Shown: piece after piece, positions 13,128-22,748 of the stretch
Numbering within the stretch: the first letter of the stretch is position 1
Layout: each line of letters begins with the position of its first letter
Source of the DNA: a virus
Strand: one strand, 5' to 3'
Length of the DNA stretch: 22,797 nt
IMG/VR virus record: IMGVR_UViG_3300048020_000318
Coordinates: 1 to 22,797 of that record
Program-made: the position numbers and the translations under genes
The notes under the pieces: model-generated
Databases searched by the model: none
Seen by the model: only the letters and a program-made list of their open reading frames with translations
Told to the model about the DNA's origin: nothing

Positions 13128-13757
13128 ATGAGCATAGGAACACCCCCTAGTACAGGACCATTACCATCAGACTATTCTTTTGGAGATGGATACAATGCTG
13201 GAAATTTAATAGCAGCGGGCTCAGATAACAAAATACAAGAATCCAGAAGGTGCACAATAATAAACGGAGCGGGTAATTTTATACTTGGAAAATACAATAC
13301 TCATATTATTGGAGATTTTGTTTCTCGAACCGATCCTAATGGAAAAAGTTACAATACAGACGAATTACTAAATAACGCTTTTTATATAGGATGTATGAAT
13401 GGACTTCATTCGTTCGGGGATGTTGTGGCGTTTGCCGCATCCGACGAGAGGTTAAAAGATAACATAAAGTTAATTAAAAAACCTCTATCTAAGATTCTTT
13501 CTCTTGATCCTGTGGAATTTGACTGGAACGAAAAGCAGGAAACTTACAAGGGTCACGATATAGGGTTAATAGCTCAGCAAGTTGAGGCAATAGCCCCAGA
13601 ATTAGTAACTACTAGAAGCAATGGTTATAAGGCTATAAAATACGATAAGTTAAATTCTTTACTGGTTGGAGCAATTAAAGAACAACAGCAGCAAATAGAG
13701 TCTTTGCAAAAACAAGTCTCTGAACTTATTGAATTAAACAAATCTAAGAATTCATAA
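13128..13757 (+). CDS. Tail fibre tip with S74 intramolecular chaperone
   Basis: Residues 20-65 carry beta-roll units (N-L-I-A-A-G-S-D-N-K-I, C-T-I-I-N-G-A-G-N-F-I). Residues 105-209 form a peptidase S74 (endosialidase-type chaperone) domain with S105-D-E-R-L-K110-D-N-I, a central D-I-G-L-I-A-Q-Q-V-E segment and a C-terminal coiled coil rich in Gln and Leu (about 180-205). In this family the domain trimerises the fibre and then cuts itself off at the Ser, with the Lys acting in catalysis; both residues are present. The gene is in a different frame from the giant fibre gene. Its own frame has a TAA at 13119-13121, so the ATG at 13128 is the only good start, although no ribosome site is visible. 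A chaperone with only a few roll units is unusually short and probably works on the neighbouring fibre. The 3' end overlaps the convergent gene by 14 bases. Confidence 0.9.
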   Translation: MSIGTPPSTGPLPSDYSFGDGYNAGNLIAAGSDNKIQESRRCTIINGAGNFILGKYNTHIIGDFVSRTDPNGKSYNTDELLNNAFYIGCMNGLHSFGDVVAFAASDERLKDNIKLIKKPLSKILSLDPVEFDWNEKQETYKGHDIGLIAQQVEAIAPELVTTRSNGYKAIKYDKLNSLLVGAIKEQQQQIESLQKQVSELIELNKSKNS

Positions 13758-14547
13758 CCTTCATCAACACTCTTGACTCTGTCGGGGGAATATCCGAGTA
13801 ATCGTTCCAGTCCTTAACTGAATCGTTTTTATATTTTCCGGTCTTCCACCAATCCCTAAGTATAACTTTGAACTCTTCGAAGCTGGAGCAATTCAATTTA
13901 TCTCCAGCTAAAGATTCTATCATTGAAGAAGGGGTGAGTGACCCCGCAGAAGAATTACTCGACGCTGTTTGGCTAGATTTGTCTATTTCGTCATCACCTA
14001 CAATATGCACGTTTAAGAAATTTCTCACACACCTAACAAATGCTCTATTACAAGCTATAGTTTCTAAGAATTTAGTAGCAAAACTGCTGGTATTGTCTAA
14101 TGTTGCATTAGCCATGTCTTGAAAAATAACCGGCTCTCCAAACGTTTCATAGTTTGGCAGAAACTTCATTCTACACACCACAGCAACATGATTTAGTTCG
14201 CACTTAACCGTCTCATAGGCGACGTCCGAAAAGCCTCTTAGCTTTGCTAGCTCTTTTATTCCGCTAAGCTTTATTAGTAGTTGGTAATCTTTTAGCCCTA
14301 TTATAGATCTGGGCAAGTCTTTTTTTCGCAAACTAAACCAAGACTTGTTGGGGAAAAGATTTTCGTCTTTAATCATCGCTCTCCAGTTTACAGAGCCATC
14401 TTCCGAGAATTCATAATCTACATTATCAAGTAATCCAAATTCATTTCTAATAAATTTGCCCGGACCGTCTTTGTAATTTTTGATGTAAGCCAAGTCGCTT
14501 AATTGTGAATCTTCTGAGTTATTTGTTGATGTCTTTGTTTTTACCAT
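13744..14547 (-). CDS. Candidate single-strand annealing protein (Rad52/Erf-like)
   Basis: Soluble 267-residue protein with no signal peptide or membrane segment. Residues 155-180 read F-A-T-K-F-L-E-T-I-A-C-N-R-A-F-V-R, then C-V-R-N-F-L-N. This alpha-helical pattern (E-T-x-A-x-x-R-A-x-x-R) resembles the conserved helix of Rad52/Sak and Erf type annealing proteins, in which a basic face binds DNA. A beta-rich region (about 110-145) precedes it, a Ser/Thr/Asn-rich linker follows (about 190-208), and a small acidic and aromatic C-terminal part ends the protein. This layout of an N-terminal ring-forming core, a linker and a C-terminal partner-binding end fits annealing proteins, but the assignment rests on one motif. 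It is the last gene of the minus operon, overlaps the previous gene by 29 bases and runs tail to tail into the fibre gene. The ATG has no clear ribosome site. Confidence 0.45.
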   Translation of the reverse strand: MVKTKTSTNNSEDSQLSDLAYIKNYKDGPGKFIRNEFGLLDNVDYEFSEDGSVNWRAMIKDENLFPNKSWFSLRKKDLPRSIIGLKDYQLLIKLSGIKELAKLRGFSDVAYETVKCELNHVAVVCRMKFLPNYETFGEPVIFQDMANATLDNTSSFATKFLETIACNRAFVRCVRNFLNVHIVGDDEIDKSSQTASSNSSAGSLTPSSMIESLAGDKLNCSSFEEFKVILRDWWKTGKYKNDSVKDWNDYSDIPPTESRVLMKVMNS

Positions 14548-15706
14548 GGTTTTTATCGTTATAAATTTTTAGTGTATCAATTTCTTCCCAGAATTCAGGG
14601 CAATCTATAACTTGATCGTGCTCTCCTTCGAGGTCATTTTTCCAAGCAGCCTTGCTGTTGTATATTTGTGCTCCTGATATGATTTTCATTGAGTTTTTAT
14701 AACGAGTATTATCGCATAGTTTTTCAGAATTGTCAAGATCTTTTTTTGTTTTTTCTTTTAATAGAGTAATTGGCCAGTCGAAGAATTTTAATCTTAGATC
14801 ATTAATAATATTTTCATCTTTACATAATAGATTAAATTTAACCCCTCCTTTTTCTAAAGATTTAAAGTAACTCTCTTTACTGTCGTTTGATATGAAATAG
14901 TTTATTCTATTTATATTCTTGCGTATAACATTTAAATATCTAACCCCCATTGGTTGATCTAAAAATATATTGCATTTTCTTTCGTAGGCCCATTTAGCTA
15001 TATTCTGTTCGTCAAAGCATTCGTGCCCCCAGATATTTACCGGCTGACCTTTGGCGAAATTTGCTGGCATGATGTGATTTGGGACCACTGACAGAGCGGG
15101 AATATGGTATTGATTTCCCATATGTAACGTTTCTATATCTGAAGTAGAATTATCTATCTTTAGTAAATTCAAGATAGATTCAGCTATTTTCTCAGGCTTT
15201 ATTAAATTTACCATTTTCACTTGCTCACTATCAGAAAAAGAAGGTTTTAACCCATTCCTGTGAGACTCTAAAAGTATTTGTTTTTCTTTATCTCCCCAAT
15301 ATGGGCCGCAACACTCTTTAAATAAAACACTATACAGACATACTATTTTTTTATTAAACCCCGAAGCAACGTGAGTACTGAAGGAATCGTTGCCAAAATG
15401 CAATAAAGATTTTGATATAATATACGCCGACTGTTTTATATTCGTTCTTCCATGTAAATGCTCGCAACCTTTTATTGATCGATCTTCTTTGCCCCCTATT
15501 TGTATCACTTTTATATCTTGTTCGTTCAAGTATGGAGAGATCATTTCCATTACGTCATCATAGTAGTCGTAGTTTTTTGATTGCATTCCACTGCTCGCAT
15601 GTAGAGTTATGTATTTTTTTTCAGCTATTGGATAAAAACATGTCTCTATGTGAGGTTTGTCTATTTTTACCCCACACGATAAAGCGTATTGTTCTATTAA
15701 GTGCAT
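14519..15706 (-). CDS. C-terminal half of a GT9 glycosyltransferase plus unknown domain
   Basis: Residues 1-185 match the second Rossmann domain of GT9 (heptosyltransferase family): I-T-L-H-A-S-S-G-M at 33-41, V-I-Q-I-G-G at 67-72, the nucleotide-binding G-N-D-S at 105-108 and T-H-V-A-S at 111-115. The first Rossmann domain with the catalytic Asp is missing here. It forms the end of the preceding gene (15697-17604), whose stop overlaps this start by 10 bases. The second part (about 190-395) holds N-I-W-G-H-E and a charged, Lys/Asn-rich tail; I do not recognise it. The start codon lies inside the stop region of the upstream gene, so translation is probably coupled. Either the two proteins assemble into one GT9 enzyme or an ancestral gene was broken. 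Confidence 0.75.
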   Translation of the reverse strand: MHLIEQYALSCGVKIDKPHIETCFYPIAEKKYITLHASSGMQSKNYDYYDDVMEMISPYLNEQDIKVIQIGGKEDRSIKGCEHLHGRTNIKQSAYIISKSLLHFGNDSFSTHVASGFNKKIVCLYSVLFKECCGPYWGDKEKQILLESHRNGLKPSFSDSEQVKMVNLIKPEKIAESILNLLKIDNSTSDIETLHMGNQYHIPALSVVPNHIMPANFAKGQPVNIWGHECFDEQNIAKWAYERKCNIFLDQPMGVRYLNVIRKNINRINYFISNDSKESYFKSLEKGGVKFNLLCKDENIINDLRLKFFDWPITLLKEKTKKDLDNSEKLCDNTRYKNSMKIISGAQIYNSKAAWKNDLEGEHDQVIDCPEFWEEIDTLKIYNDKNHGKNKDINK

Positions 15707-22079: not shown

Positions 22080-22082
22080 TAG

Positions 22083-22748
22083 TTAGCCGTTTCTTAATTC
22101 GTGAATTACGAACTTCTCTGGGAGTTCTTCGTTTTTTATGTGCCACCAATCTACGGGGAAGCCGAATTTTGAATATTCTTCCGGTATCCCTGGATGCTCG
22201 TCGAGACAAGATTCAAAAAAGAATGTATCCGGTTTTTTTCCTATATCCCTCCATATATTAAACATTAAAGTATTCACCGCCGAAACCACCCCAATGTGTT
22301 CGTAATCGTGTCCACCTATTATTCCTCCTTTTTTTAGTTTTGGGTAGATTGCTCTTATCTCGTTTAATAAGTGATTGAACTCATGGCTGGAATCTAGATA
22401 TACAAAGTCAAGAGGCTCTTTTATCTCCTTGAGTTTGTCGATCGAATTTCCTTTCAAAAAAACCACATTATCTTTTTTTAACAAAGAAGTTCCTGGCTCT
22501 CTAGGTGGGTCATTTACGTCTATTAAATATAGTTTTTTTATATCTAGGTTCTTGTATATATTTTGAGAATTTAGGCAACTGCCTATTCCTGACTCAACCC
22601 CAACGAGATCTTTTTTGTCTTTAAGCTCTTCCATTGAGGGCCTAAGTTTTGTTAGAACTTTATTCTCTTCCCACTTCTTGCTTGATAAATATTTACTTAC
22701 ATTGTACCAATTTCTTTGCAAGTCTTGACTTCCATATGATTTATTCAT
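22083..22748 (-). CDS. Class I SAM methyltransferase (Methyltransf_24-like)
   Basis: SAM-binding glycine motif V-G-V-E-S-G-I-G-S at 49-57, acidic end of strand 2 at L-Y-L-I-D78, F-V-Y-L-D-S-S-H at 115-122, and G-G-I-I-G-G-H148-D149-Y. This last motif and the L-D-S-S-H segment are typical of the Methyltransf_24 group, many of which modify sugars or small hydroxylated groups with help of a metal. Length 221. The target is probably a sugar of the same cassette, but this is inference. It is the first gene of the minus operon within the window. The gap before it (22749-22797) has an inverted repeat and AT-rich DNA, and no ribosome site is seen. Confidence 0.75.
   Translation of the reverse strand: MNKSYGSQDLQRNWYNVSKYLSSKKWEENKVLTKLRPSMEELKDKKDLVGVESGIGSCLNSQNIYKNLDIKKLYLIDVNDPPREPGTSLLKKDNVVFLKGNSIDKLKEIKEPLDFVYLDSSHEFNHLLNEIRAIYPKLKKGGIIGGHDYEHIGVVSAVNTLMFNIWRDIGKKPDTFFFESCLDEHPGIPEEYSKFGFPVDWWHIKNEELPEKFVIHELRNG

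Follow-up and report, generated by a model that had tools for sequence, protein, structure and literature searches.

A glycosyltransferase pair fixed between candidate ssDNA-binding and annealing genes in a large group of uncultured phages

The glycan clusters of Synechococcus cyanophages were read by Iyer et al. as modifying O-antigen or capsule against other phages (PMC7824862). The capsid glycans of chloroviruses, as described for PBCV-1 in the abstract of PMC7826918, have a conserved core common to all chloroviruses. Mycobacteriophage virions bear glycans, as reported in PMC12619734, and the contractile-tailed Moraphages are listed there with four core glycosyltransferases (GTs). Here we consider a linear 22.8-kb virus record, IMG/VR record IMGVR_UViG_3300048020_000318 (positions 1-22,797; the window, below, means this whole stretch), whose minus strand holds ten contiguous open reading frames (ORFs) at 13744-22748 by the window's ORF list. 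This array is two things: a conserved quartet of genes at 13744-18165 and, upstream of it, a variable sugar cassette at 18214-22748. The cassette is of an already known kind, as described for cyanophages (PMC7824862); what appears to be new is a pair of GT genes fixed between genes for single-stranded DNA (ssDNA)-binding and annealing candidates. An earlier note on this DNA had seen DNA genes inserted in a glycan cassette, but what is conserved as a unit is a recombination quartet, two genes of which encode GTs, beside a sugar cassette that evolves separately.

The quartet runs in the order Whirly-fold ssDNA-binding candidate, GT4 fused to the N-terminal half of a GT9 enzyme, GT9 C-terminal half and RAD52-like annealing candidate. 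This order is identical in all 207 viral loci fetched (some contigs being included more than once), is interrupted only by contig ends, and is accompanied by an additional GT4 match in three loci. A first pattern scan gave 47 loci; alignment-based scans gave at least 568 and at least 573 confirmed stretches, with at least 570 quartet relatives in one collection. Clustering of GT4 at 90% identity leaves 83 clusters, among which GT4 identity is often 55-60%, and no locus in them has lost or moved the GTs, while the surrounding genes change, even between the GT9 halves. The quartet is also complete and in the same order in 10 of 12 contigs of metagenome-assembled genomes (MAGs), and the five large records that were examined hold it once each. 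Spacing between its genes is short or negative, save for inserts between the GT9 halves. A large group of uncultured phages thus keeps the quartet as one small, mostly overlapping unit. It is absent from all cultured phages of the collection (megablast, tblastn), the same two programs found no close cultured phage of the window, and a literature search, incomplete in coverage, returned no report of an operon joining a single-stranded DNA-binding protein (SSB), GTs and an annealase, or of a GT pair fixed between such genes. The MAG bins that hold the quartet are mostly Bacteroidota, with Halobacteriovorax, Verrucomicrobiales and some implausible bins, which give no more than a hint of the host.

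Could the contig be a chimera of tail genes and a bacterial capsule locus, an objection that the earlier note raised against itself? This is ruled out, since all ten genes stand in the same order, together with the fibre gene, in five further viral contigs (L001, L002, L023, L040 and L041), and the core in every relative fetched. The note's other refuting condition, that the set should occur in no second viral contig, fails on the same contigs. All ten genes are real and under purifying selection, with dN/dS of 0.11 or less for each computable gene (window against L023 and L040).

With which genes is the quartet inherited? Pairwise distances of its genes correlate among themselves at r 0.68-0.88 and with those of DNA polymerase III alpha at r 0.86-0.97, whereas distances of the cassette's fused HAD phosphatase and nucleotidyltransferase (HAD-NTP) correlate with these genes at r 0.26-0.51 and those of the fibre at 0.17-0.51. 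WavE takes a place between the two. The quartet is co-inherited with replication genes, and the neighbouring sugar-supply, WavE, GT2 and methyltransferase genes are exchangeable. Among the 83 clusters, one setting is that of the window, with HAD-NTP, GDPD and WavE upstream of the quartet. A second has a sigma-like gene (our own label; Pfam gave no match), an OB-fold SSB, another GT-like protein termed GT4b and a zinc-ribbon gene. In others, by Pfam checks, the genes before the quartet are primase, PD-(D/E)XK nuclease, exonuclease and DNA polymerase III alpha, or else a Clp-like gene. Primase-nuclease-PHP-exonuclease-PolIII alpha and OB-SSB-GT4b arrays are both among its contexts. The quartet often comes after SSB genes or after DNA polymerase III, in the latter case often directly. 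GT4b (about 360 aa, no Pfam match) is itself kept in many relatives, with the zinc-ribbon gene on one side and an OB-fold SSB, or a small gene, on the other (L232:5294-6388, L187:5446-6531, L054:5629-6684).

The gap before the quartet holds a promoter-like element. The window's own match, at 9/12, is not significant alone; elements of at least 10/12 precede the ssDNA-binding gene in 42% of relatives versus 5% in shuffles, and are far commoner there than before other genes. To judge from these patterns, the quartet usually has its own promoter-like element, and for this reason the array is probably not the one operon that had been proposed. Co-expression of the GTs with the DNA genes, also proposed, fares better, as gene overlaps and the shared element imply it and co-inheritance agrees.

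The 635-aa protein falls in the GT4 family by PF00534 (Glycos_transf_1, E 3.1e-6, 27.3 bits against a cut-off of 26.4), and is best regarded as GT4-like with an altered motif: E336 is invariant, but the residue eight positions earlier in the usual EX7E is an invariant G328. Four cysteines (C270, C273, C288 and C291) occupy invariant alignment columns in a zinc-ribbon-type CxxC...CxxC insertion. The GT9 enzyme, with its (G)D-motif N-domain and donor-site C-domain, is found across two genes. Its C-half matches PF01075 (E 5.2e-8, profile positions 103-229 of 247) and heptosyltransferase II, 1psw (E 7e-5); the N-half match is weak (E 0.0085), with TIGR02201 positions 3-54 aligned to residues 531-583 in the 635-aa protein. 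The catalytic-type Asp is retained in 77 of the 83 clusters, of which a pattern picked out 63 and a count by eye the other 14. Are the halves parts of one broken gene? Their ORFs overlap by 1, 4, 10, 13, 14 nt or more in different relatives, and DUF6165, cupin or Anp1-like genes lie exactly between them in different lineages (L027:11865-12293, L199:9856-10248, L208:9910-10551). A programmed or conserved frameshift and a sequencing error are ruled out by the varying overlap length and frame and by these intervening genes, and the halves are therefore separate genes.

For the genes that enclose the GT pair, the evidence is predicted structure. The AlphaFold2 model of the 186-aa protein (predicted local distance difference test, pLDDT, 91) has the Whirly fold, beta-beta-beta-beta-alpha twice, and aligns with WHY2 over 133 residues (VIA Z 15.5, root mean square deviation 2.8; Foldseek E 5e-5); its best viral fold match is a BFVD phage protein named Whirly. 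Since Pfam gave no family match and the ORF has no KGKAAL motif, the protein is called Whirly-like in fold and not a family member. Many members end in ...PF in the alignment, as bacterial SSBs do. The model of the 267-aa protein (pLDDT 80.5; Foldseek E 0.025) matches RAD52 at VIA Z 7.4, Mgm101 at 6.3 and Red-beta at 6.1, which is moderate and below a secure level; Pfam and PDB gave no sequence match. The ssDNA-binding and annealing labels of the earlier note thus find no sequence match and gain from the models, the annealing fold at moderate Z. Both remain candidate roles resting on predicted folds, and a shared fold is no proof of function.

Table 1. Features of the window, from the quartet through the cassette to the fibre genes
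Feature	Position	Strand	Evidence and remarks
Annealing-protein candidate, 267 aa	13744-14547	-	Last quartet gene; RAD52/Mgm101/Red-beta-like predicted fold
GT9 C-half (heptosyltransferase-like) with C-terminal region of unknown fold, 395 aa	14519-15706	-	Quartet; PF01075, 1psw
GT4 fused to GT9 N-half, 635 aa	15697-17604	-	Quartet; PF00534, phrog_2170, TIGR02201
Whirly-fold ssDNA-binding candidate, 186 aa	17605-18165	-	First quartet gene; AlphaFold2 model, SSB-like C-terminal ...APF tip
Promoter-like element TTGAGA-16-TAGTAT, 9/12	18190-18217	-	Gap before quartet
WavE-family protein of lipopolysaccharide-synthesis type	18214-19098	-	PF07507 E 2e-12; in 28 of 83 clusters
GDPD-like short protein	19095-19517	-	HRG..EN..EIDV..HD motifs; phrog_34507; GDPD 7e0v E 0.04, tentative
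Cupin-like protein	19498-19839	-	phrog_24762; 37% identical to Synechococcus phage Bellamy gp207; other matches E 0.17-0.3
Fused HAD phosphatase and sugar-1-phosphate nucleotidyltransferase	19845-21266	-	Pfam E 7.5e-34 and 4.6e-11
GT2-like glycosyltransferase	21267-22079	-	PF00535 E 0.008, below cut-off
Methyltransferase, sugar O-methyltransferase type	22083-22748	-	PF13578 E 7.8e-12; RMNT_CmcI E 9e-4
Tail-fibre gene, 2404 aa	5897-13111	+	Convergent; borders quartet together with S74-type end
S74-type fibre end	13128-13757	+	Convergent with quartet; quartet-fibre boundary kept in window-type clade

In the cassette, HAD-NTP has 57-59% identity with Synechococcus cyanophage proteins that lie in glycan clusters, and relatives of the cupin-like protein occur in Bellamy and one similar phage; homologous nucleotide-sugar and GT genes occur here in a block, as they do in those clusters. 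A genome scan, sensitive to close relatives only, found no bacterial source of HAD-NTP. Most labels of the earlier note are borne out by Pfam, PHROGs and NCBIfam: Pfam confirms HAD-nucleotidyltransferase, WavE, GT4 and methyltransferase, and the split GT9 stands by Pfam for the C-half and by a weak heptosyltransferase-model match for the N-half. The GT2-like label has a family match that stays below cut-off, the GDPD-like label has motifs with a marginal sequence match, and the cupin label rests on the look of the sequence and marginal matches. The plus strand carries tail genes: a lambda J-like tip, the long fibre and the S74-type fibre end, which overlaps the array by 14 nt. The long fibre protein has no PHROG family match, and the gene that follows it ends in an S74-type intramolecular chaperone-like domain.

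What else do the relatives encode? The large records G036 (140 kb) and G025 (195 kb) belong to large phages that have many genes in common; by inspection both have PhoH-like and rIIA-like genes, and G036 has lambda-type tail genes. A tmRNA gene is present in G036 (L051:8119-8510), as is, at about 44-62 kb (L050-L051), a second block of some twenty genes in which GT-like, sulfotransferase and methyltransferase genes alternate. Sulfotransferases occur in 15 of 23 records, up to about ten per record, further gene clusters hold many GT-like genes, and two records have GDP-mannose-type enzymes. Neither the polyprenyl-phosphate initiating sugar transferase (PF02397) nor the Wzx flippase (PF01943) was found in 23 possibly incomplete records of up to 211 kb, with positive controls; both would be expected in a Wzx/Wzy-type surface polysaccharide locus, of which the records give no sign. 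Record G044 has adenylosuccinate synthetase-like and IMPDH/GMP-reductase-like genes (L231:16171-17178, 18734-19840); PurZ and 2-aminoadenine were considered for it and rejected, the PurZ model scoring far below cut-off.

How might these parts work together? The reading that we favour, tentatively and with more doubt than confidence, is an early replication and recombination unit whose two GTs would assemble, on an acceptor borne by the phage, the conserved core of a glycan that the phage specifies. The quartet would be expressed early, alongside DNA replication; the Whirly-type protein would coat ssDNA and the RAD52-like protein anneal it, while the GT4 domain, with a GT9 whose two chains come together as one enzyme, would build the glycan core in the host cytoplasm. 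The phage would itself encode the acceptor, of which a virion or tail protein is the likeliest kind. A nucleotide sugar would come from the neighbouring cassette, which would also add lineage-specific sugars and methyl groups; genes elsewhere in the genome might add sulfate, and each phage would acquire a different outer glycan. Four points taken together favour an acceptor of the phage's own, in the simplest case a virion protein: GT and DNA genes appear co-expressed, the quartet is universal across settings, lipid-carrier machinery was not found and the decoration genes vary. As the quartet is universal in phages whose cassettes differ, and whose hosts probably do so too, such an acceptor is likelier than a host surface glycan. 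The sulfotransferases speak for this reading as well, and the conserved core of chlorovirus capsid glycans and the glycans of mycobacteriophage virions offer precedents.

Several points weigh against this reading. The acceptor is putative, and conservation of the quartet beside DNA genes suits a DNA acceptor at least as naturally as a virion one. Lipopolysaccharide (LPS) core synthesis, which requires no dedicated flippase, is the setting in which GT9 and WavE enzymes are best known. The GT4 domain lacks the first Glu of its usual motif. WavE distances also track those of the quartet (r 0.74-0.86), so that the cassette is not wholly independent of it. The records searched are contigs of uncertain completeness, and that the quartet is universal across hosts can serve as an argument but not as a test, with hosts only hinted at by MAG binning.

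Might the GTs and cassette instead alter the LPS core or O-antigen of the host early in infection, and so block superinfection or the sticking of progeny to debris? This is rather unlikely, yet it comes nearest to the favoured reading. Homologues of WavE and heptosyltransferase being LPS enzymes, a host LPS core is a possible acceptor; relatives of HAD-NTP and the cupin lie in the S-CAM9 and Bellamy clusters read as O-antigen or capsule modification (PMC7824862), and early expression is compatible. Against it, every relative has the GT pair, inherited along with replication genes, whereas the cassettes vary and the hosts probably do too; that neither the initiating transferase nor the flippase was found also counts against it, though LPS core modification needs neither.

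A more doubtful proposal is that the GTs work with the ssDNA-binding and annealing proteins to place sugars on phage DNA as protection against nucleases. The constant position of the two GT genes, often directly after DNA polymerase III, speaks for it, as do GT4b beside its OB-SSB and zinc-ribbon gene and the invariant CxxC...CxxC insertion of GT4. No known enzyme for a sugar-accepting base was found, however, in contigs that are possibly incomplete: a thymidylate-synthase-type hydroxymethylase (PF00303) in none of 28 records with a positive control, Tet_JBP in none of 42, a weak negative since the control gave no match, and a C5-methylase in only 4 of 21. Marginally more doubtful still is a dedicated machine in which, as replication proceeds, GT4 and the two-chain GT9 would act with the Whirly-type protein and RAD52-like annealase to glycosylate phage DNA, or proteins bound to it, through an acceptor chemistry not yet known. 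Least probable is that the GTs entered an ancestral recombination operon once and persist by inheritance for an unrelated purpose, their interleaving meaningless: gene order alone cannot prove interaction, and flanking contexts change freely on both sides, but in 83 diverged clusters the GTs were never lost or moved despite turnover around them and between the GT9 halves, and co-expression is implied by the overlaps and by the promoter-like element that the genes share.

A group of large phages, uncultured but very common, with contigs to 211 kb, keeps two GT genes permanently inside an ssDNA-binding and annealing unit. This represents either an undescribed link between phage replication and glycan synthesis or an obligatory glycan in all these phages, and either, if true, matters for how phages and hosts recognise each other, and for defence, in aquatic systems.

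How does the locus compare with known systems? The predicted model of the annealing candidate has a beta-beta-beta-alpha core like that of RAD52, Mgm101 and Red-beta, chains of which top its VIA list, but at a Z of only 6-7.4, short of a secure level; it differs in its lack of a sequence family match and in its Foldseek E value. The ssDNA-binding candidate resembles the Whirly proteins WHY2 and StWhy2 in fold, over the 133 residues aligned, and differs in its 17% identity, in lacking the Pfam Whirly match and KGKAAL, and in the SSB-type ...APF tip that it has instead. Heptosyltransferases of GT9, such as WaaF (1psw), match in the C-half profile and in the SIGD..TSLL motif of the N-half; here, in contrast, the enzyme is split over two genes and its N-half is fused to GT4. 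The S-CAM9 and Bellamy clusters share HAD-NTP (S-CAM9, at 57-59% identity), the cupin-like gene (Bellamy), and epimerases and several GTs in a block, but those phages are Kyanoviridae, and the SSB-GT-GT-annealase quartet was not found in any cultured phage. PBCV-1 is a eukaryotic virus with a known acceptor, whereas the phage acceptor here is only putative, and no homology is claimed; the likeness lies in virus-encoded GTs and in a glycan core conserved among relatives (abstract of PMC7826918).

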